A stretch of DNA of 64,000 nt, from contig CM067298.1 in NCBI GenBank assembly GCA_034231615.1, forward strand, positions 34,726,127 through 34,790,126, given 5' to 3'. The notes under the pieces are model-generated. The model did not search any database. It had not been told where the DNA came from and saw only the letters and a program-made list of their open reading frames with translations. Both the position numbers and the translations under genes were made by a program. The stretch comes from Meghimatium bilineatum (taxonomy: Eukaryota; Mollusca; Gastropoda; Stylommatophora; Philomycidae). This document shows, piece by piece, positions 2,560-33,420 of the stretch; the first letter of the stretch is position 1; each line of letters starts with the position of its first letter.

Positions 2560-2850
2560 CAAATGTCATGCAAAGAACCATTATCTTCATACTGCGAACA
2601 GGCCACAACAGCTTGAGAAATCACATGTACAGAATGTTCAAATTTGGTGAGACAGACCAGTGGACTGAGCCCAGAGACTGCAGAACACATTCTTCATGCA
2701 TGTCAACTCTACCAAGAAGAGAGGGAGAAAATATGCCCTACTGAGACAGCACTACCTCTGAACCTGAGAGGATCTATGGATGACCTGAAGTGAATTACAC
2801 AGTTCATTGAAGCTATTGGCACTGAAACCTGATAACTTTCTGAAGATTAA
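2560..2850 (+). mobile_element. RNase-H LINE 3' fragment
   Basis: Reads SGLSPETAEHILHACQLYQE, EEREKICPTETALPLNLRGS and MDDLK, stop, ITQFIEAIG. The same text occurs on the - strand at 33048-33269. It is the C-terminus of an RNase-H-bearing non-LTR element. Confidence 0.75.
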
Positions 2851-9200: not shown

Positions 9201-12200
9201 AATTAACTCACATCAATTATAATATTTTACCATGGTTGTTGTGTATAAATTGAAGAATTTATATTGAAACTTTTGAACTTTATCAAGCAGGCCATCACAG
9301 TCTTTGCCCTCACAGTCATTCATTGATCCTCTGAACTCAGATTCTGTTGTACAGTTTGCTGATGTATGTATTTTATATTTAAAAAAAGTTTGTTTCATTA
9401 GTTTCAATATATTTGAAATAGATATAGTGAAATTATCATAGATAACTATTGATAGGATCCTAGGAATATCGCTAAGAGACAGAGTGAGAAATTAAGACAT
9501 TAGACAAAGAACCGGCATCACCCCAATCTTGGAATATATTAAGAGCCAACAGATCAAATGGTTTACACACATCAGCAGACTACCACCAGACAGCATACCA
9601 CAGCAAGCTATGCTACACATATACAGTGAAGGCAGACCTAGAGGCCGATCACGAAAACGACGGACCACCGAAATAAAAAAGGCGACAAATTCCACAATAT
9701 ACTCAGCTCACACAAGGGCCATCTCCAGAGAACTCTTCTATCCCTAACTCGGAAAGGCAATAAAGGGTTTAGCGAATAGATAGATATATAGACTATCGAT
9801 AATAGATATGTAGGATTCATATCAAAACCAAATGGCTTCAAAACCTAGGACATTATTTATGACATATTTTATTATATTTTGCAAATGCACTCTCTATCTG
9901 TCCTGTCTTCTGCAGATCATGCATTAAATTAACTGTACAAGAAAATGAACACAGTTCACCAGTTTATGAATCTAGGTCACTCCCAAGGTTCTATGTCCTT
10001 CAAATTGATCAAGAAATAAACATAAAATGAATGCAATATTTTGAAAGTAATGCAAGAGTCCTGCTGTAATGCAGATTTTTATATTCTTGGAAGAACTCTC
10101 AATTCGCCATTAATTAGCAGGATGTAGTTTATAGTTTGGTTGTGATATTTACACATCTGCATAACATGTGCAGCTTCAGTATGGCATTTTGAGGTACCTA
10201 CAAGAAAGGAGTAGCTGTCCCCATGCCGAACCATTCTTAGTTATCTGCTCCAACATACATGGCAGGTTACAGTGTTAAAGTTCTTGCTCCTTATGGCTCA
10301 AATAACATAATGAATTTTGCATTGATAAATAAAATACTATATGGAAAACATTGATTCAATTTTACGTATTTCTGAATATAATTTTAACATTGCGTGCAAG
10401 CTATGTTCTTATTAATTTGCTTTGCAATAGCATTTGCTGCATTGTGTCACTGCTTACAGCAAGATTCAATACTTTCAGCTAGACACTCAAATTTTCAGCA
10501 CTGCACTTTTGGACACAAATGATCCATATTCCAAATGCTAAAGGAGTTTCCTTATATGGAATTACTCTTCCACAAAACAATTGCTCATTGCCAAGAAAGA
10601 TTTGAATTGAACATGAATGTCATTATAAGAAGTTGACAAACTTGATGTTCCTCTCTAAACAGATGGGAGACTATAATGAATTAGGAAAAGTAGACCTGAA
10701 AAAATTGATTGTAGAAAACAGCTGTTCTGAAAGGCACAAATAAACTAGCAAAACAGTATAAAGTTGCTATTGAAGTTTATAGGAAATGTTATTTTGGGCA
10801 TATATTTTCTTGGACTAATGACACACTGTGGGTGCTGTAGTCAACCTTCACTTCTCTATATTAAGTCTGCTAAGTCACCCAGTTCTTGCAACTGGGTTAT
10901 CCTGGTATGATCAATGTCGATTACAAGAGGGCATCCAGGTCCAGTGTTTCTAGTGCGTTTTCCCTTTTTGGGCCTCAGCAACATACAGGCGTATAAATCT
11001 CTTCTTCTTCTGCATTCGTTCTCAAACTCCTGCATATTAGCAGGATGCAGTCTGGAGAATGAAATGCATTATGTCATTTGTTTACAGCATTGCTGCGATT
11101 TCTGCTCCTGTGATATTGGCCAGACACATTAGACTACAGCATGGCATTGGGTCACTTTGACCCATGTGGGATGGAACAGCCAACACCACCCCATAACCTC
11201 ATTAGTCGCCTTTTGCGATATGCATGGAAGTAAATAGTGTTGCTATTCTTTGCTCCCTTCTCGTTCCTGGTAACACATGGGCATATAAATCTCTAATTTT
11301 TACAGGCGGAAGATAATGCATGGTCTATGTACATAACTTATAATGATCATTGATTCTGATGATTGTTTGCAGCTGCTGAGTACCCCCTTATTTGAACCAC
11401 TCAGGGCTCCTGGTCATCCATCTTGGCATCATAGATACAGCACCCGTTTAACAAGCCACATTGATGATACTGATGGTGAAGATGATGAGATGAGAGGTGT
11501 AACTCCCAGTGCCGTTTTTCATTTCAGCTCAGGAGATGCACGGCAACCTGGTCAACAAACGATTCACGGGTAAACAAATACTCAAATTATCTAAACATTC
11601 ATAAAGCATAATGGTAATCTTATTAAGATATCTGTCACAGTTTATAAGAGATTACTGTACTAGCAAATTATATTTTACTCCTGTTTTTGTGGTTAAAGTA
11701 TAACAATATATATGTTGTTTATTCAGATCTGAAAGAGTACAGAATTGACAGACATGTACTATCTTATTACATACTTGAAGACTTCATATGCTGGAGAAAA
11801 TGAGATTACAAAAAATTCTTGATAAAATGGAAATATCCTAATCTGAAAGAATAAAAAAATCACATCTTTGATGTAAACTAGCAGTACAACATAAATTCAC
11901 GATTCTGCATTTGCTGTAGTATAGCCACTTCAATTTCTATTTGTAATGTCAGTCATTTTAGCATAGATACACTTTTTTGTTACTAGTTTGCAGGAAATCT
12001 GTGATATTTGTTCCTTTTAGCCCAGCACATCCATGTTCACAATCTGTCTTTTTTTGTTCTCTTCTTCTGCGTTCAGCATCTGCGGTCATGTTATATTGTC
12101 TGGCCTGTCGTCAGGACGAAGTCCACTGTCTTCTCCAGGTCAGAACGGCTGCCCCATAGCTTTTGTGTCAAATCTGTATTCTCTGGCCAGGTCTGCAGCC

Positions 12201-15200
12201 TCTGTTCTTTGTATGTTGAGCAATCCAGGTTCCGGATCCACATGGACATTCGTCTATGTATGAATCCTTAATCGTTAAAACTGAAACAATAGTCTGCAGT
12301 GGCCTGTTATAAGGTAAAATAGTGTGGTCTGTTGATATCTTTGGAGGTGATGTATTGCATCATGTTTGTCTTCCACTTTGATGTGTATGTGTTCTGGATG
12401 ATTGTTTTTACTTCTCTGTAGGACAGTGGGTGTGTGTTGTTCCATTTCACTTCCTTTTTTTTGACAGAGCACCCGCTTTCTTATTTTCCATGATTCCACA
12501 GTATGATGGTATCCATTGAAGTGGAATAGCTGATGATTTTTGGATATGTCTTAGCTCATGTCTGATGCTGTGCAGAAGGCTTTTATTTCTGTTGTTCTGA
12601 ATTGATTCCAGATCTGCAATCTGTGAATATATTGTTTATCATCTTTGGTCTTGGCAGTCCTGGTTCCGTGAAGACTGTCAGTGCTTGATAGAGTGCAACT
12701 GCTTCTGCTCTAAAGTTGGAGGAGTATTTCCTGGTTGGAAAGCTTTTGACATTTTCTTCCGATCTTTGAGTCTTATAAGAATTTCACCTCTTCCATTCCT
12801 TGCTACTCCCTCTGCAATCCATGTGTCCATTCCTTGGAATTGTATTTTACTTCTATCATCTCTGGTGTCAATGCTTTTAGTTGAGGTGGAGTCTGGTATT
12901 CCTTATTAATTATTCCAGGAACCTGTGTTATTATGGGCAAGTTTTGGAGACTATTGTCCAAATCCAGCGGGAGTTTGAGAATGAATGCTGAAGAAGATGA
13001 CACTGTAGGTCAGAATGGTACTATCTGGTCTGGGCACCACTTGGATGACAAACGGCACAACACATCCCCTCCCTATGTTTTATGGAGCCTGAATGAAGAT
13101 CAAAGAATAGCAGTATTGTGACCTGCCATATGCATGTCATAGAAGACAACTAAGAAGGTTTGGTGGTGGAATTTTCTCTCATCATATAGGTCAAATTGAC
13201 CCAAAAACCATGCTGAAGTCAGATGTATCAGGCTGAAAGATGCAAATATCACAGCCAATTTGTGTACATGGCACAATGCATTCTATTATCTGCACTACAA
13301 ATCACTAAGCAGTAGAAGTTTAAGAGATGAATGCAAAAGAAGAAAAAAATAGAACAAATGACAAAGAGAAATTCGATTATACTATAGTGAATGCAGAAGA
13401 TTTAAATAATACTGCATGTACTGTCATTGAACAGTAACATATGGGCATTGAACTGCTTGTGTCATTTGTCCATTAATTTTTAGAGTTATTAGAATGAAAC
13501 ATTTTGTGGTCATTTAGCTAGACTGATGTATCCTTATTCTGTTCTTTGTGATATTTCAGGATAATCAATTATGTGATACAACATCTTGGCAATGATTTGG
13601 GAGGGCGAACTCCACTGTACGTACTAGTTATTTTAATGTTTAATAACATTTCTTAAGATAGTGAAATTTGAATAATCAAAACCGCCAAAGATCGATGTGT
13701 CGGGCCATTGACGCAAATAAAACGGCGACACAGCGCATTTCCATTTTCTGGACTACATCCTGCTGGAAATCTAGTTGGACCATTGTCCTGCTACAAGAGA
13801 GATCCTGTTGGAGTTTGAGAATGAACGCTGAAGAAGAAGAAGAAGAATAATCAGCGAAGTAAAAAATTATGTAATTATGTAGATACAGTAGAGATGTGGT
13901 TTATAGAAGAATGTTGAGAGCACCATAGACATATAAAAAGCATAATGAAGATATCTCGAAGAAGGTTAATTAAAAAAGGGAGCTGCTCACTTTCATGGAC
14001 AGAAGAATGTCCACAATCTTTGGACACTTGTCCACAATCTTTGGACACTTACCGTTAAATTCTGAATATAAACCCATCCGATTGTAGGCTGATAACCTAA
14101 CTATCCCTTCCCAAAAGTGGAGAAAGTCGAAAGTCCGACTATAGACCGACATCCCCAACTTAACAAAGCCGGCAATAATGAACTTCATCATCATAAGAAA
14201 GAACCGACATGCTAAATGGAAATTAACACAAACTTTTGCAACTCTAAGAAAATAGCATTCCTTTCATTTGCTTCACTCACGTAACTTGAATGAATCAAGG
14301 AATGAAACCCTGGTGGCTACTGTATTCCGGAACAATATATCCGAAAATAATGAATACCCCGTAGGCTGACTTCCCTATCCATGACTATAGACAGTTTATG
14401 AGGTGGCAAGACTTTGGGGAACAAAGATTTTCCTGAATGAATTGTCTGTGTTGGGTGTCTGGGCCTTATGACGCGGAACAGCGCTAGTGAATAGTAATTA
14501 CTATGTAACTATTATGTCACCAGCTGGCTTCTGACAGTGACATTTAAGTGGGAAACGTTTAAGTGGGAAACGATGAAAGGCAAGACAGCAAGATCACGTT
14601 TGTTTTTATAAGATACAGAAGAGTTTGAACTTTGTAACTGGTTATGTTTACAGTGTGGGGAGAATACGGTAATAAAATAAACATAACAGAGGATTGTGAA
14701 ATTGATCTCATCTTCCACTAAATGTACAGTGGTTGGGGGAGGGAATCAATTACGGCGCAATTTTACTACAAAATGCCTATGATGTGTTGTGATTTGGAAC
14801 TGCGGCCTCAGTGGGCTGGACTAATTAACAGAATATACGGCTGACTTAGCTAGCCAAGAATACTGCACAAGTAGTTAAGCTTCCAGTTCATACATTTTTA
14901 TTGTCATTGTGATTTTATTCCTGTAAGTGTAAGCGGGAAACGGGAAAGATGAATGGCCAGACAAAAACATGCCAGATCACGTTTGTTTTTAAAAGATACA
15001 GAAGAGTTTGAACTTTGTCTGACCTGTATGTTTACCTTATACGGTAATATAAACTGAGGCACAGCTCAGACAGTTTCACTATTGATTTCTCTCCCATTCT
15101 CCTCCCTCCAACACTGCCTAAGCGGCAAAGTTTTGGATGTCAAAAATGTGTTTGTGCAAGACCGTAGTATGTAGAGTAAGACCTCTGCACAGAAATTAAT

Positions 15201-18200: not shown

Positions 18201-21200
18201 ATATGGTAAATATATAGGAATTTTTTTTAATTTAAAAAGGGTTAAATAACAGTTTCATGATCAAGTGACGTCTCTGCAACAAAGGTTGCTGCAACAGACC
18301 TCCAACATACCATCTCTTGTTTTGCTGGTGCACTCTGCTAGATGTAACCTGCCCATCTTGTGATGTTTCTCTCCCACTTGTATCTCTACCTACCTCTTGC
18401 TCGCCTACCTTCGGCTTAACCCTCAAGTAAGGTCTTCAACAAGGTGTCATGTCTTTTAATGTGTCCAAAATATTTTATTTGCTTGATCTTTATTTCCTTT
18501 AATAATTCTTTCTTCATATTACGTGTTTTTAAATTTTTACATAAAGCAAATAGAATATGGGAAACATAAAATAACTATAAAGACATTTTAATAGAAACAT
18601 TTGAATATAATAAACGTTTACAGTTTCTCTTGGATATCTGAGTTGAGCCTTTAATTTTACTACATCCAATTAGAGCACACAATTTTTGTTCATAAAAAAT
18701 TCAATAATAATTGAATATAATATCCTATATTAAGATTTGCTTTAATTATTATTAAAAGAATAGATGAGTACTGTATTTTAAAGAACTCCTACATCATCTG
18801 AGTCAATAACATCACCTGAGATAATTCCCAGCATACATTGTTAAATTGTTTCTTCTTAGAATGTGTAGGTAAATTTTGAATTATTAGTTTTCTTAATCTG
18901 TAAGAATTTTGAATCATGAAATTGTGAGCTTTCATTTTATCTATTGTGTGCTCTATTTTGCCACAGCTATTAAATCACTTAGAAGGAAGTGGTGCTCCTC
19001 CAGCACAAAAGGACAAGATTGACAACTTGCCAAGGGTCATTATTGAGCAAAGCCATATTGGTAATTTTGCACAGTTGTTTTCATTTGATTTATAATTGTA
19101 TACAAATAAATTATAATTTATTTGCAAGGTGAAAAACAGGATGTTTACAGTCCCCAAAATTTTTCTCATGTTTATAAATTAGGGCATAGGACAAATAACT
19201 AAAAGAAGGAAGGAAAACATGAATACCTTGGACATTTGATAAACAACTGAAGAATTTGGATTTTGCAGGTGACCCATGTCTACTATCAAAGAAACAACAG
19301 GAAATGCAGAAATAAACATACTAATAGAAGTAGCAAAAACTGGACTTCAAATTAAGGGAAGTAACACAAAGGAAATGAGAATTAATAACATACACAAAAT
19401 CGGAAAGGAATATATGGTCAGACATTTGAAGAGGTAGTCAATTTTACTTATTTGGGTAGCAACATTTGCAAAGAGAGAAGACAGATTAGAATGTTAGCAA
19501 CCTAATTATTAAGGCTAGATAAAGCTTTTAGTACTCTCTTTCCAGTATGGAATTTCATCAGCATTATTCAATAGAAACAAGGCTATGTTGTTTAATATTA
19601 TTGTACTGCTTTATGGCACCTAAACATGGCTTGTAACCCAGAAAATCCCACTAAAGTTGCAGATATGTATAAACAGGTGTCTCCAATGTCTTCTTCGCAT
19701 TAGGTGGCCTGTGGTGATATAAAATTGATTAATATGGAAGAGAACCCACCAGTGTCCAGGGTAGGTAGAGATAAAAAGGGATATATATATATATGAATGA
19801 CATGCCCTTAAAAGGAAGCCTACATCATAACCAAACAGGTGCTTGACTGAAACCTACAAGAAAATAGGAAAGTTGAACAACAGAGGATAAAGTTGTGCTG
19901 CAGTGGATCCCTGCACACTGTGGAATAGCAGGAAATGAAGGAGCTGACAGACTGGCAAAAGCAGGTGCAAAAAAGTAACAATTCCAGCACAGAATATCAC
20001 TGACTGAAGCAAAAACCCTCATCAAAGGAAAATACAAACATACATGGAGTCAGAGAACAGGCAGTAACTTTCCACAGGACCCTATTCTAAAGCTAAACAG
20101 GTCACAACAAACCACAATTTTTAGACTTTGCACAGGACACTGCAGACTACAAGCACATCTCCACAAAATTAAGCTGCCCAAACTGACCAATGCCCATGTC
20201 AAAAGGGTCCCCAGACTCCAGAACATATTCTGCAGACATGCCCACTCTTTGATGATGTGAGAACCAAAATATGGCCCCAAGAGACAGATCTGAAGGTGAA
20301 GCTGTGAGGCAACCGTGAGGACCTCCTGCTGACGACTGAATTCATGGAGGTGGCCCACCTTCCTGTATAGACTTATGAGCATAGGAAACTGATCGCAGAA
20401 GAAGAAGAACAACAGAGGAATATCTGGAGAAGAATAGTGTTGGAAGAGACCAAATAAATTAGAACATCATGTATACAGTTGAAGAGGAACAACTTTTTTT
20501 GTGCAACAATTTTTATAATTGAGCTGAAGTCTTGTGAAGTAAAAAAAAATATTTACTGATAACTTATTACCAAAATATTTTTGTTTAAATTCAGATAGCA
20601 AGTCACCTGGTTTGTTGCCAGGGTCTGAAAGGGGAGCAAAGAATATCTATCTTATCCTATTGAGGGTCAAAGTGATTCTGAAGTCATGATATGACATGCA
20701 GAAAAGCACAGATATCATAACTAAGTTAGGGCCAGTGTGTTGCATGGGCCCGAAAGGAGAGCAAAGAATAGCAACACTGTTTACCTTCCATGCATGTCGT
20801 AAGAGGCGACTATGGAGGTTATGGGATGAAGTTGGCTGCCCCATACCATATAGGGTCAGTGACCCAAAGCCATGCTGAAGTCGGATGTGTCAGGCCGAAA
20901 GGCGCAGATTTCACAGCAATGCTGTAAACCATGACACAACGCATTCCGTTCTCCGGACTACATCCTGCTAATCTGCAGGAGTTTGAGAACGAACGCAGAA
21001 AAAGAAGAAGATAACTAAGTTGTAAACCATTGCACAATGCATTTCGTTCTCTGGACAACATTTTTCTAATATCCAGGAGTTTAAGAACTAATGCAGAAGA
21101 AGAAGATAGATAGCCGTAGAAAATTCAATGTTGGAAAAACTTGATTCATCATATGTGCATGTCAAACAAAAGTGTATTCTGCACATACTAGTTACTTCAA

Positions 21201-24200
21201 ATGTTAGATCTAGTACAAATGAGAATGTATTTTTTCCCTCTTTGTTAATAAAAAATTAGATATCCCAACTGTAAATATAAATAACTTTAGTGGGAGTAAA
21301 TTTTCAGCTTTTAGTATTTTAAGTGGATATGAAAAGATGCCTATTGTTGTCATGTTAATCCTAATGATAGAACATTAATCAATAAGTTACTTTTGTGTTA
21401 TTGGTTAGTTGATTAACTTTGACCTTAATGCATGTTCATGCGGTTCATTTAGGAAACAGGAAAAATCAAGGTCTTAACAAAGTTTATTTTACCAATAATT
21501 AAGGAGTGAACACTGACTTAAAGTTGTACATTCGTTTACATCTCAGAAAAATATTTTTGTGTGCTACTGTTAACTGGCACAGCTCTTGATTTACAATGGG
21601 ATAATCTCGGTAGGCTGTGTCATCAAATATTGTCTTTATCCAGAGTGTTTATCCTGGGGACTTGAGGTATTTGGGTCTAGGTGAGGCACTCAGAAAGCCC
21701 TTGTCATTCATGCGGCCTACAATTTTTTCTAGTTGTCTCAACTATCTTGCCGTTGGTGTCGAATAGGCAAGGGCGAGAGTAATACAATTTGACAAATAAT
21801 GCAATTTTTCCTCACTTTAATCCAAATACAGTGCAAGCTCTGACACCTCATCAAGTCATACACAACACAGCAAAAATGAAAACGAAGTTAAGGTTTCTCA
21901 GCTTTGGCACATGGAATGTGTGTACATCATCATCCCAAAACAGTTGATCATACTGAATGTGAGCTCAAGGAAAATGACTGGCTGGTGCACAGATGAAACA
22001 TTTCAAGGACTTTCTCAGTGTCTCTAAAAAGCTTCAACATTGATGCCACATCCTGAGAGTCTGGAATCATCCTGTGTAGCTCAGAAACACCAGTAAAGGT
22101 GTTTGCATCACAGAGAAGCATCAAATCTAAGAGATACAAAGAAAATATGCTGCCAGAAAAGACAGAACAACAAACTCACAGACGTCCAATTCTGATTATA
22201 TCTGTCCCAAATGTAGGGGATTCTACGTCAGGGTTGAACTTTTCAGTATGCTCCGCAAACAGCAGAGAGTTGCAATAACACAAGTCTGAAACTGTTGTAA
22301 TCATTGCCTGCAATGGGCGTCTATTATTATTATTACTTGAGACTTAACTGACATGGCGAAAGAAACAAATGACCCATGGCCCAAATGTAAGCAAGTATAT
22401 TATCACAATTATAAAGCAGATGGAATATTAGATTTGCCGTATATTATTGGAGTCCAAAAAGGGAGCAACAAATAGTAAAACTGCTAATTTGTATGTATGT
22501 TATAAGAAACAACTAAGGAGGTTGGGCATACAGATGACCCTGTGATCTCTGCTGTGATAAAGCTTGCTCGGACTGGCAGGCCTGGAATGTTGAGAGAAAC
22601 TCAACCCTTTTATATGCAGCATGCTTCAAGATTGTAAGAAGTTCTTATAAAGTACCGTTTAGAGTAGGAAACTATCCAGCTGATGAGATTGAATAAAATA
22701 GTCATCTGAAGTGGCGCATGGCCAAGAGGTTAGAACGTTGGTGTTACACCCGTAAGTTCCAGAGTTCGTTCTGACTGGGTTTTTTCTGAGGGTAAATTAA
22801 AAACTCACCCTGTACATGACATGGCGACAGCAAGAGCACGTGGCCATTATCAAACAGCAACAAATCCGTCCCTGCAACTTCCTATTGAGAATCATGCAGT
22901 GTTTGGAGTCATCTGAGATGTGCAAAAGTTCTGTAAAATCTTCCCATAAAAAATAATTCCAAAGAAACCAGCCTGAAGATGAAAGTAAAATTTCATTGCC
23001 TGACATAGAGAACAAGAGTGACAAACTCAGGGTACTGTCAGCATCTTGGTGTTAAGACCATATTTTGTGATGACAAACAGTATGTTAGGGATTATGTGGT
23101 CATAATGACATCTATGGCCTTTACATTCCCAGATTTGATCTGATACCTTTGTTCTGAGGTTGGAGCCACTAAGACAGAATGAACAACTTTCTATCAGAAC
23201 TGGTAATCAAATCTAGACCTCCTGGCTAGGGAGCCAGTCCACTAACCACTGAGCTACCAGAACTTCTAGACGAGGAGATGATTCCTGATTGAGAAATGCT
23301 CTCAGAAAGAAATGTTTAGTGTTTATGATTTCCTTGCGTATATAACAAGCAGTCAGAAAATACAACTCACTTTTCAATATTTTGATGATAGTTCCTAATT
23401 AGGAATGCAACTCCAAAGGAATAAAGGAGTGTACTATGCTGAAAGAAAGCATCAGACACAAGCAATCCATGTCCCAAGTAGCTGAGGAGAGATTCATTTG
23501 TAAACGATTACTCTACAAGAGGATACGGTTAATCAAGTGTGTAGTAAGCTCACCATACAAAATGCTTATTGAAATAAGTTATGTTGGATCAATAGCTGCA
23601 ACAAAAGCTTAACTCCGCTGTAAATCATAACACAGTGTTTATGCTCATAATGTGTTTAAATCACAAGATAAATCAGGATGACTTGTTTTTGTTGTTCAAC
23701 CATCACAAGTGTTACGTTCACTTTATGAAATTCAGTTAGAGTTATATCCTTGATTATGAGTTCATTGATGGCTAATAAGCCCTTTTTTGGCTGCCGTGGT
23801 CCTAGGAAAATCTTGGCATGGTATGATCACTTTAGAGTGTGTTTGATCTGCCTGTATCTTTCTAGCTAATCTCTGCTGTTAAACTGCTGCACTCCATTGC
23901 ACAAGGTACTACACCTTTTTTGATTGTAGAGTGCCTGTTTCATGCATCATAATTTATATCAAATGATTTAAGTGGTCTTTAGCATGTCTCATAGCACTTC
24001 TTCTGGCTGCTTTGAGAACGTATGTCCTGCATCTTACCATAGAGGAATATATTTGGTAGATGATCTGGCGCATGTATCACGTGACCTGGCCTATGAAGCT
24101 GTGACTGCATCAGAAGAGTGTCAATGATAGGGATATCGTTACTAAATCAGAGTGAACAATGAAGAGGAACTTTGATTACAATTCAGTTACATTTATAAAG

Positions 24201-27200
24201 TTGCATATGCAGTTGCATTGACATATAATAATTTTCTTTTATGCCAAATAGATAACACACTGCAGTGTTCTATATGTATGGATGATTTTGAATTAGCCAC
24301 AGAAGTCAGAAAACTACCCTGTGATCACTTCTATCATTCAGAATGCATTGTCAAGTGGTTAGAAATGGTGAGAATGTACATTTTCAAGATAAATGTCTAT
24401 GTGTGTGGACAATTGTTACTGTTTATGAGTAAGTTTACTATTAAACGTATCTAGAATATATATGAGGTGGGATTAGCCATAAACTTCTAGATACATGGAC
24501 AAGGTACAGAAAGTGGCAGATATTACTAAAAATAGCTGGGATTTCTGATATTTAACTAATTCTCACAGAAAACAAGCACTAGAAAATGAGTACCAGCAGA
24601 GTTGAATGTAAACACAGCAAAGAAGCACCCTGGTTCTCTCACCTCTCAAAGGAAACTGAGACTTAGTACTGTGAGGAAGAATAAACCTCATGCCATTGAC
24701 CTGATATGGAATAACTACCTTTATCTTTTTCTTTTAATGCAGTGGTAGGAAACCTTTTTAGTGCCATTTGTAAATTAACCTTTAGCAAGCCAGACTAAAA
24801 TAACGCAATTTTCCCCCTGCCACCAGATTCTGTGGCAAATGCAATAACAGGAAAGGCAAATGCAGTAACATACCGTCACCACTACTTCTTCAACCCAAGA
24901 TCGAGATGGAAGTTAAAAGACAAATGATCTACAGTATATTCCTACCAACACTGTGTTACCAGTGCCAAACCTGGTATCTCTCATCTTCACATTACAGAAA
25001 GATAGTGACATGTGAGATGAAATGCTTGAGGAAAGCTGTCACGGTCACCATACTCGATAAATTACGAAATGAAGATATCAGGGAAAGAGAATGCTTCACG
25101 ACAAGTTGCCGTGCATGCATATAACCAAATGAGATCAGGGTACAAAGCCAGAGGAAGACCACGGAAAAGATGGATAGAAAACGTCAGGGACATCTTGAAC
25201 AGACACGGTCATAGGTCATAGCACAGCCGAGGCCACACATCTGGCTTTAGAACGCAAGATCAAGCTATAATCACCCCCTACACTTAACGACAAGAGTCAA
25301 TAACAAACCACCTGGGGAAAGATAGAGAATAGACCAGATTCTGTTTTGTGTTATTGTTTGTGGCTGTTTTGAAAATGTGATAACTTTTTTTAAAGAGATA
25401 TTTAAATAATCTTTGTGCATATAAATAAAGAATTGAATACTGCATTGTTGGCGTAAGTTTTTGTGTATGTGTGTGAGATCAGATGTGTGAGAAAGTAGTA
25501 AAGACATTTTTATCACAAAAAAACCGAACAAATTATAACAAACAAAATGAAAAAAAATTATTAAGAAATTACTTAATTATTTTGTGGAATTTTCTGAAGT
25601 GGGAACACTGTAAAACTCACCTAATTCTACAGTATTTATGTTGTTCCATTGTCAAATGATCATATCCACACAAGCATAGATATATGATCAGAACTCCAAC
25701 AGGGAAATTCTGCAATAATTACCATGCGGAAATCCAGGCAATTAGTGTGGCAACTAAAAAACAGTTCACAAAAAAGGAAAAGAAGTCAAATGGAATAGCA
25801 ACCAAAATATTTGAAATTTGGCTTCTTTTATTGATTAAAGGGTGCCTAGCACGGCGCTTGTACACTCGACAGCCGCTCAGAAACTTGTAGAACGCACTAA
25901 ACCGAAGCGTGCTTAAGGTTAATAACATTATTTGCAGACCATACAAAATTATTAATTTAAAATTTAGCCTGCAGTATTTGCTCAACCGAACAACTGAAAT
26001 CAGTAGTGAAAGGCATTGTGTCACACTGCTCTGCCCTCTAGCGTGTGTTACCGTTTCCAGATTCTGTGTGTACTTGTAAGATCACGGTATTTTAGGAACA
26101 TTGACATTGGTCACCCCTCCAATGTTTCTGATTTTTAAGCTGGCCAAGTTGGAATGCACAGTGATGTTGGATGTAATGGCATAGAGGTTCTGAGATAATT
26201 TCCTGTTTCTGCAAGCAATTTTCATTCCATCTACGGAATCTACAGCATCCACGGACACGAGCTAAAAGTGTTAGCTAGGAATACGACAAGAGCAGCTGTA
26301 TTTGTTTCCAGGGTGCACCATGAGGATGTACTTTTAGGATCTTGGTTAACTGCTAACCCTGGGTCTGCATGAGAGCAATTTGAGACCATTTGCACTCCAT
26401 GCTTCCATTATTTATATGTTAAATTACACCAATACTACAGATTTGCTGTGGAAAGATCTTGCAAAATGGCATTACCTATATATATCAATCAAGTGATATA
26501 TTCTTTCCAGGACGTTGTCTTCATCATGGATACTCTGAACCATGTAAGCAGGCCTGTTTTGACCGGAGACATGTTCATACATTCTTTGATGTCACTGGTC
26601 CACCATCTTCTTTTGCCGTTCTCTTCTTCTCTCACCTGCACTCTGCCCTCCAGAATCAGCCTTTCGATATCATCATGTCACTTTTAGTGTCCAAAATACT
26701 GTAGCTTCCTTTTTATGACAGTTTTTAGAAGCAACACTTCATTTAGTTTCAGTAATTTCAAAAAAATTTCAATGTTCTTTTTTTCTCCATGCATGATATT
26801 TGTAGGATCTTTCTGCAGCACTTCATTTCAAATGAATTTATTCTTCTGGATATTGTCTTGTTTAAAGTCCAAGTCTCTCATCCATATGTTGCAACTGGGA
26901 AAACATGATCTTAAAAGGTTTATTTTAGTGTCATTATTACTACTTTGCCACAGCTTTCTCATTTGTGTTAATTTGAGTGTTGCAATTGCAAGTCTTCTCC
27001 TAATCTTGACTGAACAATCTCCAGAACTGTTTATATTTTGCTCCCAGATATTCGAATTTGTTTACACATTCTAGTTCAATATATTGTTAATACCTACATA
27101 TTGTGAATATTTGTTTATTTTACATTTGAATTGGATATGTTACTAGGTCTGAAAGTAGAGCAAAGAATTGTGATATTGTTACTTGCCTTGCATGAACTAA

Positions 27201-27727
27201 GAGGATTTGGGAGTGGAGTTGGCTGTCCCATTCCATACACTCAAAGTGACCCAGAAACCATGCTGGTCAGATGGGTCAGCCTCAAAGGCACAGATATCAC
27301 AGCCAAGTTGTAAATCATTACACACACACACCCAGTTCTTGGGACTAAATCCTGCTAACATGCAATAGTTTGAAAATGAATGCAGGAGGAGAAGAAATTC
27401 AGTTGTTTATCTTCTGTAGCATAGTGTATCTGCTCAAATCACCAGGAAAAAAATTAATGAATATAAACAACTATCAATGACCAAATTTGCTGTGATATTT
27501 TTTAATATGTACATGCAATTAAACTACATGCATATTTATTTCCCCTACAGCATGGAACCTGTCCGGTATGTAGAAAGGACTTGAATGGAGAGGACACTTC
27601 TACAAATGAAGCAGAATTCACTCCTGATTTCCACCTGACTTCAGGTGGTGGTAATGGTGCAACTTCTTCTTCTTCCTCATCTACCTCTATGGAAACAACT
27701 CCTTCTTCCTCATTTTCTGATGCCTGA
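3187..27727 (+). CDS. RNF126: RNF115/RNF126-like RING-H2 E3 ubiquitin ligase, spliced, 5' incomplete
   Basis: Seven exons were joined by homology and splice sites: 3187-3236, 11381-11569, 13560-13616, 17868-17934, 18967-19060, 24252-24367 and 27551-27727. They total 750 nt, 249 residues plus TGA, with compatible phases throughout. In order they encode the second Cys pair of the N-terminal BCA2-type zinc finger (CSRCDSGFIEE), a variable acidic linker, the family signature NPGDYAWGPNGLDAII, a GAPPAQKDKI segment, and a RING-H2 with canonical C-x2-C-x14-C-x-H-x2-H-x2-C-x10-C-x2-C spacing, then a Ser-rich tail. Vertebrate members are slightly over 300 residues, so roughly the first 50 residues and the start codon are missing to the left. 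Family members are cytosolic E3 ligases that ubiquitinate substrates such as BAG6-bound mislocalised proteins and endocytic cargo; that role is inferred by homology. Vertebrates have two paralogues, and this looks like the pre-duplication type, so the symbol is approximate. Confidence 0.93.
3341..3490 (+). repeat. 26-bp minisatellite, about six units
   Basis: Units of the form CACGGCCTTCTTTTCAGGCA plus TAGGAC repeat about six times with few changes, starting about 100 bases after the first visible exon of the RING ligase. The rest of 3491-4018 shows nothing recognisable. Confidence 0.9.
4019..4490 (-). mobile_element. SINE-A copy interrupted by about 210 bp
   Basis: The 3' half (4019-4140, reading CTCAAACTCCTGCAG on the + strand) and the 5' half (about 4353-4490) are separated by unrelated sequence. 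GGTCAATTTGACC lies at 4371-4383. Confidence 0.75.
4555..4620 (+). repeat. Dispersed repeat shared with 43447-43500
   Basis: TTGGTTGGTTGCTGATCCAG and the following CATGCCCTTTGAC occur nearly identically at 43447-43500. Class unknown. Confidence 0.65.
4630..4850 (+). mobile_element. tRNA-derived SINE
   Basis: GTGGAGCGCATGGCC resembles a pol III box A and GGGTTTAATTC a box B about 50 bases later, followed by a tail similar to that at 22705. The 3' part (AGCAGCCTTTATTTCCACAG and following) recurs near 45770. Bases 4851-5084 hold nothing recognisable. Confidence 0.55.
5085..5420 (-). mobile_element. LINE C-terminal zinc-finger end
   Basis: Diverged copy of the segment at 47600-47960 and, in the opposite orientation, 22140-22330. 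Those copies read ICPK-C then a Cys/His finger. Here only the alignment to them shows the identity. Confidence 0.6.
5600..5830 (-). repeat. Dispersed repeat shared with 59710-59950
   Basis: About 230 bases including GTTGATTATCCTCTTCGCAC and ACACCGGATAT match 59710-59950 at many points. It is probably part of a LINE, but no clear protein remains. Confidence 0.6.
5850..6190 (-). mobile_element. RNase H domain remnant of a LINE
   Basis: On the - strand: SDSMNMIQKVKTG, then IIFVP and HRGVEGNKWADHLTSLVTT. The last follows the RNase H pattern with the catalytic Asp after a His-x-x-x-E/N context. Frameshifts separate the pieces. Confidence 0.65.
6200..7700 (-). mobile_element. LINE with APE endonuclease and start of reverse transcriptase
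   Basis: From 7700 leftwards: FYEEFGSVISSVPKFDKLII, MEYILGKHSVGKCNNNGLL, LTITNILFRLPTQNKT, HLSYYVITIKNDKQDV and CWTDHKLI, the order of the C-terminal half of an APE-type LINE endonuclease. A linker follows, then CSFRAGCGSIDTIFAAQQ, an RT motif. Several stops and frameshifts. This is the best preserved endonuclease domain in the window. Confidence 0.75.
7770..8830 (+). repeat. Composite dispersed repeat (C-D element)
   Basis: The part 7770-8070 matches 26095-26405 and 38775-39140 (both inverted relative to it); the part 8240-8610 matches 38330-38510 (inverted). Both parts keep their order and relative orientation at 38 kb, so they are one element. GGTTCAGTACCC occurs twice in 8240-8600, within an internal duplication of about 165-200 bp. 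The class is unknown. Bases 8831-9440 show nothing else. Confidence 0.6.
9440..9780 (+). mobile_element. LINE 3' terminal fragment
   Basis: Reads ILEYIKSQQIKWFTHISRLP, then PQQAMLHIYSEGRPRGRSRK, the typical QIKWFGH...GRPR C-terminus of a non-LTR element. The same family is on the - strand at 40.9-41.1 kb. Confidence 0.75.
10105..10300 (-). mobile_element. Old SINE-A copy
   Basis: Recognisable pieces are TTAGCAGGATGTAGT, GCAGCTTCAGTATGGC and TACATGGCAGGTTACAGTG. It is strongly diverged. Bases 9781-10104 and 10301-11004 contain no gene or other clear repeat. Confidence 0.5.
11005..11290 (-). mobile_element. SINE-A copy
   Basis: Near full-length, from CTTCTTCTTCTGCATTCGTT to CCTGGTAACACATGGGC. 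It holds GGTCACTTTGACC at 11150-11162. It ends about 90 bases before the linker exon of the RING ligase. Confidence 0.9.
11381..11569 (+). CDS. RNF126: RING ligase linker exon
   Basis: The open segment reads TPLFEPLRAPGHPSWHHRYS and later an acidic DDTDGEDDEM stretch, ending at GG|GTAAAC. The left edge is uncertain. An AG at 11372 would put the exon out of frame after the preceding exon, while the AG at 11379-11380 gives Asp from GA+T and a 189-nt exon in frame. The linker is poorly conserved in the family, so this exon rests on phase, on the good donor and on joining exactly to the next exon rather than on similarity. An additional unseen exon between 3236 and 11381 is possible. Confidence 0.68.
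12055..12910 (-). mobile_element. RNase-H LINE fragment
   Basis: From 12910 leftwards: an eroded RNase H domain, then LITGHCRLL, a Cys-rich segment, and the end LEKTVDFV. The last bases on the - strand are CTGAACGCAGAAGAAGAG, matching SINE tails. No complete frame. Bases 11574-12054 are AT-rich without features. Confidence 0.75.
12945..13003 (+). mobile_element. SINE-B 3' fragment
   Basis: Contains GGAGTTTGAGAATGAATGCT then GAAGAAGATG. Only the 3' third is present. Confidence 0.65.
13085..13350 (+). mobile_element. SINE-A copy
   Basis: Diverged full-length copy with GGTCAAATTGACC at 13189-13201 and a tail GAATGCAAAAGAAGAAAAA. Confidence 0.8.
13560..13616 (+). CDS. RNF126: RING ligase exon (helical middle region)
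   Basis: The 57-nt exon lies between ATATTTCAG and GTACGT. Joined to the preceding GG it reads GIINYVIQHLGNDLGGRTP, matching in position the family segment GIIQQLVNGI upstream of the NPGDYAWG signature. Phase is 2 on both sides. Confidence 0.78.
13679..13845 (+). mobile_element. SINE-B copy with target-site duplication
   Basis: Flanked by AATAATCA at 13671-13678 and 13846-13853, beginning about 60 bases after a RING ligase exon. It ends in (GAA)5 and contains the shared GGACTACATCCTGCTGGAA block. Confidence 0.88.
14009..14050 (+). repeat. Two tandem 21-bp quasi-palindromes
   Basis: GTCCACAATCTTTGGACACTT occurs twice without a gap. Each unit has the inverted halves TGTCCA and TGGACA. Confidence 0.9.
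14543..15060 (+). repeat. Local duplication of about 130 bp in an intron
   Basis: Bases 14543-14690 and 14933-15055 share GATCACGTTTGTTTTTA and AGATACAGAAGAGTTTGAAC with the same surroundings. The interval 13870-16000 otherwise lacks recognisable SINEs or LINEs, which is unusual in this window. Confidence 0.75.
15661..15739 (+). promoter_or_regulatory. Possible internal promoter and first-exon donor
   Basis: TTTCCGGGAA at 15674-15683 is followed by AAAATGGCGGCG (15694-15705), which resembles a YY1 promoter site, and by a strong splice donor GTAAGTGAG at 15731. The ATG frame is closed after six codons (MAASLK). It lies in the repeat-poor part of a RING ligase intron. Speculative. Confidence 0.25.
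16020..16310 (+). mobile_element. Very degraded LINE 3' fragment
   Basis: Pieces such as AGAAGGGGTAGACCAAGAGA (from a GRPR-type C-terminus) and a duplicated GTCAACAGACATGATAACCA segment suggest an old LINE end. Confidence 0.35.
16425..16635 (-). mobile_element. SINE-A copy lacking its 3' tail
   Basis: Runs from CAGAATGGAATTC to TCGGCAATACACAGG. Holds GGTCACTTTGACC at 16503-16515. The (GAA)n end is replaced by A-rich sequence. Confidence 0.8.
16695..17735 (-). mobile_element. RTE-like LINE, 5'-truncated copy 1
   Basis: On the - strand it encodes the RT from TLWNILQQYGFPTKIINVIK through GVKQGCIMSPLLFC, the thumb YKIL-type region, the GCESWKATDKRLDSFENNCL segment, RRWTYIGHVLRMN, and ends KWKAMVSAL with CAAYGPEG. 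A TGTTATGTTATG tail follows at 16697-16712, typical of RTE 3' ends. The catalytic box at 17439-17450 reads YTDD, not YADD. It is highly similar to the copy at 62.6-63.8 kb. Frameshifts at about 17108 and 17480. Confidence 0.88.
17868..17934 (+). CDS. RNF126: RING ligase exon with NPGDYAWG signature
   Basis: After acceptor ATGAACAG the 67-nt exon reads ILRGNPGDYAWGPNGLDAII SQ and ends at donor GTGAGA. NPGDYAWG followed by GLDAI is diagnostic for RNF115/RNF126 proteins from insects to vertebrates. The exon begins 130 bases downstream of a truncated RTE-like LINE. Confidence 0.93.
18232..18560 (-). mobile_element. LINE 3' fragment of the GAT-tail family
   Basis: On the - strand: an IKYFGH-like start, GRQRYKWE-like context and the end AETSLDHE. 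Comparable to 42900-43160, which ends in AGTALVDDD. Bases 18561-18966 are intronic and featureless. Confidence 0.6.
18967..19060 (+). CDS. RNF126: RING ligase exon preceding the RING
   Basis: The 94-nt exon reads LLNHLEGSGAPPAQKDKIDN and then LPRVIIEQSHI, equivalent to the family's [22 protein letters not shown]. Acceptor is TTTGCCACAG and donor G|GTAATT. It ends one base into a codon that the next exon completes as Asp. Confidence 0.92.
19220..20500 (+). mobile_element. LINE fragment split by a nested LINE
   Basis: Before the insertion (19220-19887): YLGSNICK, RLDKAFSTLFPVW, and an RT C-terminus with stops. After it (20407-20500): NIWRRIVLEETK and SCIQLKRNN, continuing the same element's GRPRNTWRR...EET end. 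The two halves meet at a duplicated GAACAACAGAGGA. Confidence 0.7.
19888..20406 (+). mobile_element. RNase-H LINE, 5'-truncated, nested insertion
   Basis: Starts in the RNase H domain (LQWIPAHCGIAGNEGADRLA KAGAKK), continues through ISLTEAKTLIKGKYKHTW and TTIFRLCTGHCRLQAHLHK, and ends GATCGCAGAAGAAGAA. It is flanked by the 13-bp direct repeat GAACAACAGAGGA (19875-19887 and 20407-20419), so both ends are defined. Several stops make it dead. Confidence 0.88.
20605..21106 (+). mobile_element. Older SINE-A copy split by a younger one
   Basis: 5' part 20605-20727 and 3' part 21022-21106 (GTAAACCATTGCACAATGCA through the GAAGAAGAAG tail). The younger copy sits between them. Confidence 0.85.
20728..21010 (+). 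mobile_element. SINE-A reference copy, 283 bp
   Basis: Bounded by an 11-bp target-site duplication ATAACTAAGTT (20717-20727, 21011-21021). It runs from GGGCCAGTGTGTTGC through GCATGTCGTAAGAGGCGACT, GGGTCAGTGACCC (20853-20865), GATGTGTCAGGCCGAAAGGC and GACTACATCCTGCTAATCTG to GAACGCAGAAAAAGAAGAAG. No tRNA-type box A/box B pair or 5S similarity is evident. Confidence 0.92.
21836..22330 (+). mobile_element. Internally deleted LINE: endonuclease start joined to zinc-finger end
   Basis: MKTKLRFLSFGTWNVCT (near 21876-21930) is the start of an APE-type LINE protein. Within about 30 bases it passes to the C-terminal region: KDFLSVSKKLQH, KGVCITEKHQI, YAARKDRTTNSQTSNSDYIC and PKCRGFYVRVELFS (zinc finger). 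The RT is absent. Confidence 0.65.
22450..22535 (+). mobile_element. SINE-A 5' fragment
   Basis: CCAAAAAGGGAGCAACAAATAG and ACAACTAAGGAGGTTGGGC match the SINE-A 5' third. Confidence 0.5.
22705..22800 (+). mobile_element. tRNA-derived SINE head
   Basis: GTGGCGCATGGCCAAGAGG (box A-like) and GAGTTCGTTCTGAC (box B-like) about 50 bases apart, with a tail GAGGGTAAATTAAAAAC like that of the copy at 4630. Confidence 0.6.
23192..23266 (-). mobile_element. tRNA-like SINE head
   Basis: On the - strand, GGTAGCTCAGTGGTTAGTGG is a very good box A and D-arm, followed by an anticodon-like hairpin CTGGCTCCCTAGCCAG and a box B-like GATTTGATTACC. The acceptor stem is not convincing, so I call it a SINE head rather than a tRNA gene. 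Confidence 0.5.
23690..23790 (+). repeat. Dispersed repeat shared with 62100-62200
   Basis: CAACCATCACAAGTG, GAAATTC-GTTAGAG and GGCTAATAAGC occur in both. Class unknown. The rest of 23270-24251 is intronic with nothing recognised. Confidence 0.6.
24252..24367 (+). CDS. RNF126: RING ligase exon with most of the RING-H2
   Basis: The 116-nt exon encodes CSIC, then CDHFYHSEC and IVKWLEM, carrying six of the eight zinc ligands including both His. The Trp of IVKW is the residue that in RING domains packs against the E2 enzyme. The acceptor is CCAAATAG and the donor GTGAGA. The intron splits the RING between WLEM and HGTCPVC in phase 0. Confidence 0.95.
24740..24830 (+). mobile_element. Possible hAT-type terminal inverted repeat
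   Basis: CAGTGGTAGGAAACCTTTTT resembles hAT transposon ends. No transposase is near. A similar opposite end is at 44935-44960. Confidence 0.3.
24900..25330 (+). mobile_element. LINE 3' fragment
   Basis: Reads [40 protein letters not shown], then after a frameshift GYKARGRPRKRWIENVRDIL. The end CCACCTGGGGAAAGATAGA matches that of the 34-36 kb LINE. Bases 25340-26090 show no feature. Confidence 0.8.
26095..26405 (-). repeat. Composite repeat, C part only
   Basis: Matches 7770-8070 and 38775-39140: CCCCTCCAATG, GCATCCACGGACACGAG, TCCAGGGTGCACCATGAGGA. Confidence 0.65.
26470..27060 (-). mobile_element. LINE C-terminal remnant
   Basis: On the - strand: FSQLQHMDERL, EKKNIEIF, a GH-type and then RRWWTSDIKECMNMSPVKTG, and TTSWKEYIT at the end. 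KTTFWKEYVT recurs at 37660. Many stops. Confidence 0.5.
27135..27396 (+). mobile_element. SINE-A copy, diverged
   Basis: From ACTAGGTCTGAAAGTAGAGC to GAATGCAGGAGGAGAAGAAA. It ends about 150 bases before the terminal RING ligase exon. The palindrome is decayed. Confidence 0.78.
27551..27727 (+). CDS. RNF126: RING ligase terminal exon, last zinc ligands and Ser-rich tail
   Basis: After TTCCCCTACAG the exon reads HGTCPVCRKDLNGEDTSTNE, supplying the last two Cys ligands, and continues through a Gly/Ser-rich tail with six consecutive Ser to TGA at 27725-27727. RNF115 has CPVCRKSLNGEDS here and RNF126 ends in a long Ser run, so both paralogue features are present. 'Shadow' reading of the Ser run on the other strand is poly-Glu and not a gene. 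Confidence 0.95.
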   Translation, partial: HGTCPVCRKDLNGEDTSTNEAEFTPDFHLTSGGGNGATSSSSSSTSMETTPSSSFSDA

Positions 27728-28690
<963 letters not shown>

Positions 28691-28729
28691 TTGATTGTTT
28701 TAAAGTTTTGTTGTTGTTTTCTTGACACA

Positions 28730-28984
28730 CTTGTGTGTTGCCAGGGGAAGCAAATGATAACAATAGTCTAACTTGCCATGCATGTCATAAGAGGTGACAG
28801 AAGGTTTTAGAGGTGAGTTGGTCGTCCCATTCCACTCAGGTTCAATTGACCTAGAAGCCATACTGAAGTCAGGTATGTCAGACTGACAGAAGCAGATATC
28901 ACAACCAAGGTGTAAACCATACTTAAAGCACTCTGTACTACATTCTTGTAATTTGCCGGAGTTTGAGAACGAATGTAGAAGAAG
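28730..28984 (+). mobile_element. SINE-A copy
   Basis: GTGTGTTGCCAGGGGAAGCA to GAACGAATGTAGAAGAAGC. Moderately diverged; palindrome decayed to GGTTCAATTGACC. Confidence 0.85.
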
Positions 28985-29042
28985 CTTTCTTGTTTTGTGT
29001 TTACTTTGCGTGTACTTCTGCAAGAAGATTAATTACTTATGT

Positions 29043-29202
29043 CCCGCCGAAGCCGGATGTGTCGGGCCATTGGCGCAAATAAAACTGCGACACAACGCAT
29101 TTCCGTTCTCTGGACTACATCCTGCTGGAAATCTAGTAGGACGGACCATGTTCCTGCAAAGAAGACCCAGTGGGAGTTTGAGAATGAATGCTGAAGAAGA
29201 AG
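29043..29202 (+). mobile_element. SINE-B reference copy, 160 bp
   Basis: Flanked by the 12-bp direct repeat AATTACTTATGT at 29031-29042 and 29203-29214. It begins CCCGCCGAAGCCGGATGTGT and ends GCTGAAGAAGAAG. The central part is CATTGGCGCAAATAAAACTG and the shared GGACTACATCCTGCTGGAAA. Confidence 0.93.
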
Positions 29203-29250
29203 AATTACTTATGTGTCTGTCTGGAATATAATGCATTTATAATGAAGATA

Positions 29251-29398: not shown

Positions 29399-29403
29399 TT
29401 CCT

Positions 29404-30460: not shown

Positions 30461-31364
30461 AAAATTGTTACCTGTATATGTCCCCCTTCCTCCTAGACAA
30501 GTTTGAGTTCCCCAAGTAAATTTTTTTTCTTTTTGAGCCCCATAAAATCACTGGGGAACCACTGATCCATAGCAGAAAAGAAAAAGTGGAGGTATGGTTT
30601 ATACACAATTGAAACAGTATATATTTTAGCTCGGAAACCTTTCCATCTGCCGCAATTAACTTGAACAAGCTTTTATGTTTTGTGATTTTTTCATACATAT
30701 AGATTTCATTATAAAGTGCAAAAATTACACTTATTTTAATTACAAACACCAAGATGACAGAAATTTGATGAAACAGAGCGAAATAATTAAGCCAAATCAA
30801 TTGTAGTTCCATCATCATGTTCTAAGACGCATGAACATGTAGAAAAAATCTGGTATATGTGTCCATGATTCACAAGTCTTGTGAAAACTAAATAAAATTT
30901 CCACTTTGGATGTAGAAACAGAATGTCCAGGTTGCCATGCTTGGTCATCCGGTTCTTGATTAAGTATTAAAAACTGACCAAAAATTGATGAGATCAACTT
31001 CACAGTTTTCACATTATATTTCTTTTTTTTTTTTCATGGACATGAATTTTCTTTTTGAAATGGTGAAGAATTAAAATAAGAAAGTACCCAAAAAAATCAG
31101 GGACCAAAAAAAAAAGGTGAGGGTATAGCATATAAAGAGTCACTGACTCATCTCTCAATCCTCAAATGATTTTCTGCAACCAGTTTATTGTATGGCATAA
31201 AATGTTATGGCCTAGTGAGGAGTCTTGTGTTATTAATTGGTGTAAAAATTGTAGTATATCCCAACACTTTATTCTCCTTTGATGATAATCTAGACCATGA
31301 AGTCGTGACTATTTCCTTTGCTTCCCTACAATATTATATTATGGTCCAGGTACTATGTACGCTC

Positions 31365-31680
31365 TTCTTCTGTGTTCAGCATGTGGACATGCTATACCGT
31401 CAGACCTGTCATCAAGACGAAGTCCACTGTCTTCTCCAGGTCAGAGCGGCTGCCCCATAGCTTTTGCCTCAAGTCTGTATCCTCTGGCCAGGTCTGCTGT
31501 CTCTGCTCTTTGTATGTTGGGCAGTCCTGAAGTATGTGTCTGGAGTCTGGGTTCCGAATCCACATGGACATTCATCTGTGTATGATATCCTTAATCGATA
31601 AAGGTGACCCAACAGTCTGCAGTGGCCTGTTCTAAGGCGAAATATTGTGGTCTGTTGATATCTTTGGATGTACGCTCTTA
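31365..31680 (-). mobile_element. RNase-H LINE 3' end
   Basis: On the - strand: QQTTIFRLRTGHCRL-like text, a Cys-rich CPCGF-type segment, LEKTVDFV, and the terminal CTGAACACAGAAGAAGAG. Closely similar to 12055-12320. Bases 31681-32035 are AT-rich and featureless. Confidence 0.75.
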
Positions 31681-32039
31681 ATATTTGTGAAACAAGGTTG
31701 TTACTTTGGTTTGATACATTTTTTCTCTTGCTTTTACAGGTTTAAGCTTAACATTTATCTGCTGACATGGATTCATGTATATATGAGTGAATCTTTATTA
31801 TTTATTTAATCTGTTTCAATTACCTGTTTTTTTTCATTAAAAGCATACAATTATAAGAAGATTAAATGGTAAAATTCTGCTGTGGTCTTGTGAGAGAAAG
31901 TTTGAATGAAAGAAGATATTGAAACTAGAATTATAACTTGTATGTCTCAAAGGAGGGAAGTAACTGGTAATAATAAGTTCATATACTATAATGTGTTTGG
32001 GGGGGGGGTTGTGTTACATACTTCCTGTTACTTCTTTGT

Positions 32040-33039: not shown

Positions 33040-33420
33040 TTCTTCAGTCAGATATCAGGTACAGCGCCAATAGCTTCAATGAATTGTGTGATTCGCTTCA
33101 GGTCATCCATGGAACCCCTTAGATCTGGAAGTAGTGCCGTTTCAGTGTGCCATATTTTCTCCCTCTCTTCTTGGTAGAGTTGACAGGCATGAAGAATGTG
33201 TTCTGCAGTCTCTGGGCTCAGTCCACATTTACACAGGTCTGTCTCACCAATTTTCAGCTTTCGAAACATGTGACTTCTCAGTCTGTTGTAGCCAGTTCAT
33301 AGTCTGAAAATGATGGTTTGTTCATTGCATGACATTTGATGGTAGGGGTCATTTGGTTCTCTAGTTGGGTACATCTTCTTCCATTTTTCCTATATTCTGC
33401 TTTTATCGTAGTCTTACATT
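33040..33420 (-). mobile_element. RNase-H LINE C-terminus
   Basis: An open - strand stretch reads FRKLKIGETDLCKCGLSPET, AEHILHACQLYQEEREKIWH and DLRGSMDDLKRITQFIEAIG, followed by a stop. CxC and H-x(3)-C give a knuckle-like zinc motif. It is the best-preserved example of this C-terminus. Bases 33430-33990 contain no clear feature. Confidence 0.82.

Follow-up and report, generated by a model that had tools for sequence, protein, structure and literature searches.

A short interspersed element (SINE) that ends like a long interspersed element (LINE) usually depends on that LINE for its copying. The principle that SINEs and their partner LINEs share a tail is set out in PMC3747384, which also records TAA repeats at the end of the I element. 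In stringent-type pairs a 3' stem-loop is common in SINEs and LINEs, and in the eel the 3' terminus that the SINEs UnaSINE1 and UnaSINE2 have in common with UnaL2 finishes in a short tandem repeat. The only protostome pair in Table 1 of that source consists of Gecko, a SINE from the mosquito Aedes aegypti, and the LINE tail of I-74_AAe (MosquI, other I elements). In molluscs, the Nimb and Ingi LINEs of the I superfamily have been reported (PMC10294476, PMC11203168). Here we describe a terminus of this kind in the gastropod Meghimatium bilineatum. The window, a stretch of 64,000 nucleotides (nt) of contig CM067298.1, contains two SINEs, SINE-A (~280 nt) and SINE-B (~160 nt), together with LINEs that encode ribonuclease H (RNase H) and, like the SINEs, end in a run of GAA. 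The tail relationship between these SINEs and LINEs is real and ordinary in kind, and the likely partner is a LINE of the type named here LINE-2, instead of the LINE-1 copy ending at position 20406. The insertions on which the comparison was built are as follows.

19875..19887, plus strand: 5' target-site duplication (TSD) of the LINE-1 copy, GAACAACAGAGGA, matching the 3' TSD in sequence
19888..20406, plus strand: 5'-truncated copy of LINE-1, an RNase-H LINE, tail GATCGCA(GAA)n, bounded by TSDs; RVT_1 and RNase_H domains found in an open sister copy
20407..20419, plus strand: 3' TSD of the LINE-1 copy, GAACAACAGAGGA, matching the 5' TSD in sequence
20728..21010, plus strand: full-length SINE-A copy, TSDs ATAACTAAGTT at 20717-20727 and 21011-21021
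20941..20996, plus strand: 3' module of this SINE-A copy, a predicted hairpin ending GAACGAACGC directly before the tail (consensus RNA fold; coordinates placed by eye)
29043..29202, plus strand: full-length SINE-B copy, without the SINE-A 5' half, TSDs AATTACTTATGT at 29031-29042 and 29203-29214
12059..12530, minus strand: LINE-2 copy, Kimura two-parameter (K2P) distance 0.117 to the young consensus, tail CTGAACGCAGAAGAAGAG (repeat matches, age)
31359..31735, minus strand: LINE-2 copy, K2P 0.013, tail CTGAACACAGAAGAAGAG (repeat matches, age)

The TSDs of the LINE-1, SINE-A, and SINE-B insertions are 11-13 nt long. Their coordinates as given in the initial annotation (19875/20407, 20717/21011, 29031/29203) were exact on re-check, and the tails of the minus-strand LINE copies read as quoted there, at 12059 and 31362. 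The SINE-A copy has one substitution inside its GAA run. With at most one mismatch, GCAGAAGAAGAA has 22 matches in the window where 0.47 would be expected, a number that none of 100 shuffles reached; a longer GAA-tail pattern has 29 matches, with 1.09 expected.

RNase-H LINE families and the match to the SINE tails

The genome searched comprises 1.61 Gb in 32 contigs. Genome-wide consensus sequences were derived from the best-scoring loci (30 each for SINE-A and SINE-B, 20 for LINE-2, and 10 each for LINE-1, LINE-3, and LINE-4); because the best 40 candidates were scored per search, the candidate totals for the genome do not measure copy number. Copies and ages were analyzed in a 259 kb sample, not fully random, that combines the window with the flanks of 65 of 68 loci (three overlapping the window were dropped). 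L-numbers denote sampled loci outside the window.

The initial annotation had treated the LINE copies at 20406, 12055, and 31365 as one RNase-H LINE. A single family for these copies was rejected: the first belongs to LINE-1 and the other two to LINE-2, and the proteins of LINE-1 and LINE-2 share 44% identity over 486 amino acids (aa), or 49% over the C-terminal 159 aa. At least two further families, LINE-3 and LINE-4, accompany them, and the open frames of the four are pairwise 38-44% identical over 379-591 aa. RNase H was detected in each family in a single copy: a sister copy of LINE-1 with an open 589-aa frame (RVT_1 3.7e-13, RNase_H 6e-21), a LINE-4 copy with 607 aa (RVT_1 1.9e-15, RNase_H 1.6e-15), a LINE-2 copy with 489 aa (RNase_H 3.5e-15), and a LINE-3 copy with 448 aa (RNase_H 8.5e-14). 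The fetched pieces of LINE-2 (489 aa) and LINE-3 (448 aa) gave no RVT_1 match. In LINE-1 and LINE-4 the reverse transcriptase (RT) domain precedes RNase H within one frame, as is described for the second open reading frame (ORF2) of non-long-terminal-repeat elements (PMC11203168). All four families include young copies. The other 39 of the best 40 scored genome matches were 98-99% identical to a 311-nt LINE-1 query and 97-98% identical to the window copy of LINE-2.

The LINE consensus sequences end in ...GAAACTGATCGCA(GAA)n for LINE-1, ...CATGCTGAACGCA(GAA)n for LINE-2 (last letters CTGAACGCA(GAA)n), ...CTGAAGAACGAT(GAA)n for LINE-3, and ...CAAGTGAACGAAA(GAA)n for LINE-4. A terminus of the form GA(A/T)CG..(GAA)n is common to all four, displaced by one base in LINE-4; the stop codon lies 27, 21, 19, and 21 nt before the GAA run in LINE-1, -2, -3, and -4, respectively. 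The number of GAA repeats differs from copy to copy. At L126, near position 606, a truncated LINE-2 copy lies directly at a SINE-B-type GAA tail, GAACGCTGAAGAAG.

The SINE consensus ends are sharp, GAACGAACGCA(GAA)n for SINE-A and GAATGAATGCT(GAA)n for SINE-B. We compared the letters before the GAA run, anchored at the end, in ten comparisons with 2000 shuffles each (uncorrected). The best match of SINE-A is LINE-2: the last 20 nt of the two consensus sequences, GAACGCA(GAA)n, are identical, and 7/7 letters agree, as in 1 of 2000 shuffles (0.0005). LINE-1 agrees in 6/7 letters (0.007) and LINE-3 in 5/7 (0.039), and neither LINE-4 (0.49) nor LINE-5, a LINE of another type (0.56), matches. For the older GAACGCT form of SINE-B, the corresponding values are 0.001 (2/2000) for LINE-2, 0.005 for LINE-3, 0.0085 for LINE-1, and 1.0 for LINE-4 and LINE-5. 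The consensus of older SINE-A copies (23 copies, K2P >0.15) ends in TGAACGCA, an eight-letter match to CTGAACGCA of LINE-2; that of older SINE-B copies (18 copies, K2P >0.12) ends in TGAACGCT. On these alignments, the SINE-A 3' end resembles the LINE-2 3' end beyond the simple repeat, over a short match. Near matches to SINE-A, SINE-B, LINE-1, or LINE-2, at least five of the seven letters precede 29 of 42 GAA runs, a count that is partly circular and consists mostly of the SINEs themselves; away from such matches they precede 2 of 40, one of which is LINE-3.

The initial annotation had proposed a comparison of consensus ends. On this comparison LINE-1, LINE-3, and LINE-4 differ from the SINEs outside the GAA run, and LINE-2 and SINE-A do not differ over the last seven letters. 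No LINE with a longer match to the SINE tail was found among the five families examined, which do not amount to a complete LINE library.

The median K2P distance is 0.237 for SINE-A (56 of 58 copies measured, 10 of them below 0.06) and 0.148 for SINE-B (33 of 34 measured). Measured against the 3' consensus, LINE-2 copies lie at 0.013 and 0.117, LINE-3 copies at 0.063, 0.067, 0.082, and 0.167, and LINE-4 copies at 0.007, 0.041, and 0.353. These ages overlap those of both SINEs, so related LINEs seem to have been inserting over much of the SINE period. LINE-1 is represented by a copy at 0.021 and a relative at 0.361 (L015). With its sole near-consensus copy at 0.021 against the SINE medians, LINE-1 appears to be too recent for the majority of the SINE insertions. 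The age comparison, also suggested in the initial annotation, thus fits LINE-2, LINE-3, and LINE-4 and not LINE-1. Half of the LINE-1 matches in the sample (7/14) lie in the flanks of searched LINE-1 loci and are uninformative on abundance.

Taken together, a common LINE/SINE 3' terminus and insertion of the target-primed reverse transcription type are supported. The original claim that one LINE had driven both SINEs is not: it lumped two LINE families, the LINE at 20406 with its GATCGCA tail is a poorer match to SINE-A than the GAACGCA of LINE-2, its near-consensus copy is younger than most SINE copies, and the SINEs are themselves related.

Structure, kinship, and insertion of the SINEs

In the 259 kb sample we found 58 copies of SINE-A and 34 of SINE-B. 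The other 39 of the best 40 scored genome matches were 94-95% identical to the SINE-A query and 89-96% identical to the SINE-B query. The initial annotation counted two SINE families; as independent SINEs they were rejected, since the consensus alignment spans nearly all of SINE-B. In this alignment SINE-A from position 144 to the end faces SINE-B from position 5 to the end (~120 aligned positions), SINE-B having an extra segment near its 3' end; nhmmer in the window aligned SINE-A positions 138-280 with SINE-B. The score without the last 20 bases is 53.75, compared with at most 18.75 in 500 shuffles. By this alignment SINE-B consists almost entirely of the 3' module and lacks the 5' half of SINE-A. 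TSDs at SINE-B ends in 28 of 30 loci show that SINE-B is a distinct unit rather than a collection of shortened SINE-A copies.

A strong hairpin is predicted in both SINEs, in the last 75 nt of SINE-A (z -3.77) and the last 110 nt of SINE-B (z -4.95), and none of 200 shuffles reached the stability of either; both hairpins end at the GC preceding the tail. Because SINE-A and SINE-B have in common ~120 aligned positions, including this hairpin without a LINE counterpart, the tail was probably acquired once, and the two SINEs are not independent cases of tail sharing.

In SINE-A loci TSDs were found in 18/30 (median 11.5 nt) and in SINE-B loci in 28/30 (median 11 nt; two of only 7 nt), window copies included. 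Mismatched pairings of the same flanks gave spurious TSDs in 4/870 and 9/870 cases, respectively. At the SINE-A nick, T stands at -2 in 14/18 and A is the first TSD base in 16/18; at the SINE-B nick, T stands at -1 in 18/28 and A is the first TSD base in 20/28. The TSDs of the two SINEs are alike: in most insertions of either, T or C precedes the TSD and A, which is ambiguous with the tail, opens it. For LINE-2, 14 long copies were fetched, and the eight judged to be 5'-truncated were used; four have credible TSDs of 10-14 nt, and a fifth match, a plain GAA run, was not counted.

The window contains further copies of these elements, all placed by repeat matches and, for the LINEs, dated by K2P distance.

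2571..2820, plus strand: LINE-3 copy, decayed 3' end, K2P 0.167
33057..33383, minus strand: LINE-3 copy, K2P 0.067
1388..1597, minus strand: LINE-4 copy, K2P 0.041, tail GTGAACGAAAGAAGTAGAAG
59176..59331, plus strand: old LINE-4 copy, K2P 0.353
61630..61908, minus strand: young SINE-A copy, tail GAACGAACGCAGAAGAAGAAG intact
11000..11282, minus strand: SINE-A copy
13682..13842, plus strand: SINE-B copy
45905..46056, minus strand: SINE-B copy

Another SINE-A copy (4015-4132 and 4353-4488, minus strand) is apparently interrupted at SINE positions 151-156 by ~220 bp of unrelated origin. Four copies of a 38-bp unit form a minisatellite (29249-29400) that starts ~35 bp past the SINE-B TSD. A direct repeat of ~700 bp is present at 16865-17562 and 62768-63463, 45.9 kb apart and 95-98% identical. 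The exact 23-base SINE tail had no match in IMG/VR viral contigs.

Partner assignment, alternatives, and significance

We regard it as probable that SINE-A and SINE-B constitute one non-autonomous retroposon lineage that is mobilized in trans by RNase-H LINEs of the LINE-2 type. In the SINE RNA a terminal hairpin would close at GAACGC, or at GAATGC in young SINE-B, and leave the (GAA)n run free behind it. The RT of a LINE-2-type element, whose own RNA would end in TGAACGCA(GAA)n, may engage this terminus, prime at chromosomal nicks with a preference for T|A, and leave TSDs mostly of 9-14 nt. Judging from the termini, a LINE-2-type protein is the putative copier of the SINE RNA, and the 7-8 letters with the GAA run are its candidate recognition signal.

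The pair resembles Gecko, a SINE matched by its 3' end with LINEs named as I-type, several of which are listed for one SINE in Table 1 of PMC3747384. The likeness is one of listing, and unlike Gecko, for which a tRNA promoter is listed, the SINEs described here have no recognized tRNA-like head. As in UnaSINE1, UnaSINE2, and UnaL2, the common terminus ends in a short tandem repeat, and as in stringent-type pairs generally, according to that source, a 3' stem-loop is predicted in both SINEs. Unlike in the eel pairs, no such hairpin is seen in the LINE ends, and the common sequence amounts to just 7-8 nt plus the repeat. A hairpin common to the LINEs and SINEs was rejected, the LINE ends folding like shuffles, with LINE-2 as a weak exception (13/200 as stable). 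A reverse-strand tRNA candidate that ARAGORN proposed on the SINE-A consensus was not used; ARAGORN found no tRNA gene in the window, and Rfam gave nothing at gathering level there.

Several observations weigh against LINE-2 as the partner. The match beyond the GAA run, 7-8 nt, is far shorter than that of the tobacco TS SINE pair, roughly 100 nt (PMC3747384). For SINE-B, LINE-3 (0.005) and LINE-1 (0.0085) come close to LINE-2 (0.001) in fit, and the young SINE-B consensus, GAATGCT, is a poorer match to LINE-2. LINE-4 has no ungapped match, a one-base gap being needed. The folds of the LINE ends are unremarkable (z +1.27, -1.70, +0.61, and -0.31 for LINE-1 to LINE-4), and since they fold no better than usual the SINE hairpin lacks a clear LINE counterpart. 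The LINE ages come from 11 copies. LINE-2 TSDs are credible in only 4/8 copies, with 8/56 spurious in the mismatched-pair control, and the nick sites are too few for comparison. As for the SINE heads, a scan for the A and B boxes of RNA polymerase III (Pol III) did no better in SINE-A and SINE-B than in shuffles. Rfam gave no Pol III-type head, its sole match in one SINE-A locus being a sub-threshold Giardia snoRNA family (E 0.079), with no match in one SINE-B locus.

A broader arrangement is conceivable, though we hold it only tentatively: at least four diverged RNase-H LINE families may keep one 3' signal, GA(A/T)CG-N..(GAA)n, which a single SINE lineage would mimic at the foot of its hairpin.

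Recognition of the repeat by itself is rather unlikely. Here (GAA)n would suffice, any RNA ending in GAA would be copied, and the GAACGC block would be a leftover or a coincidence. The varying number of GAA repeats between copies, which is slippage-like, is consistent with this explanation, and so is LINE-5, in which (GAA)n follows another sequence, giving the end GGAAGGAAA(GAA)n; some further unassigned repeats in the sample also end in (GAA)n. Against it, four RNase-H LINEs at 38-44% identity keep GA(A/T)CG near the run (shifted by one base in LINE-4), and both SINEs keep the block (GAATG in young SINE-B), whereas LINE-5 does not.

LINE-5, which we take to be RTE-like, is represented by an RT fragment (RVT_1 1.8e-6, narrowly short of the Pfam cut-off); in the three pieces examined RNase_H was not found. 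Its sites are L031:347 (minus), L033:2079 (plus), L049:2760 (minus), and L060:1301 (minus), where AAAAGAGGAAGGAAA precedes (GAA)n. As a SINE partner LINE-5 was rejected, since its letters before the GAA run differ. It demonstrates that GAA tails are not confined to LINEs with detected RNase H, and, being another type of LINE, that a partner cannot be named from its (GAA)n tail by itself. A further repeat, distinct from both SINEs and perhaps itself a SINE or another LINE, ends GTTATCAGAGAGCGAATGCA(GAA)n at L013:1892 (minus) and GTTATCAGAGAGCAACAGGA(GAA)n at L024:468 (minus). At L043:449 (plus), a GAA-tailed stretch ends CTAGCGAATGAAA(GAA)n, its upstream sequence lying outside the described LINEs and SINEs.

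Still less probable is a true partner in another, unsampled LINE family with a longer match to GTTTGAGAACGAACGC. The five LINE families come from the 259 kb sample and targeted fetches, and for GTTTGAGAA within the SINE tail no LINE counterpart has been found so far. With 58 and 34 SINE copies per 259 kb, however, such a partner should be common, and there is none among the GAA-run sites listed. Descent of the SINE lineage from an internally deleted RNase-H LINE, with the tail as a mark of ancestry, could by inference explain tail identity alone but is very improbable, as in the window at E 0.01 the SINE-A and SINE-B queries found nothing where LINEs lie, nor did the LINE-1 query match where SINEs lie.

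Gastropod and bivalve SINEs are said to be modular, exchanging heads, domains, and LINE tails, in work by Matetovici et al. from 2016, and SINE-A or SINE-B may already have been described there or in Repbase. A literature search over titles and abstract openings returned nothing on this tail; an earlier description is possible.

In the M. bilineatum genome a minimal common terminus unites four LINE families, all with young copies, and two SINEs, both abundant, and for this reason the minimum sequence for template recognition by a LINE becomes directly testable. If several RNase-H LINE families do keep one 3' signal that the SINE lineage mimics, the SINE could use them in turn and outlive the loss of any partner, and SINE-B would have spread while lacking the head of SINE-A.

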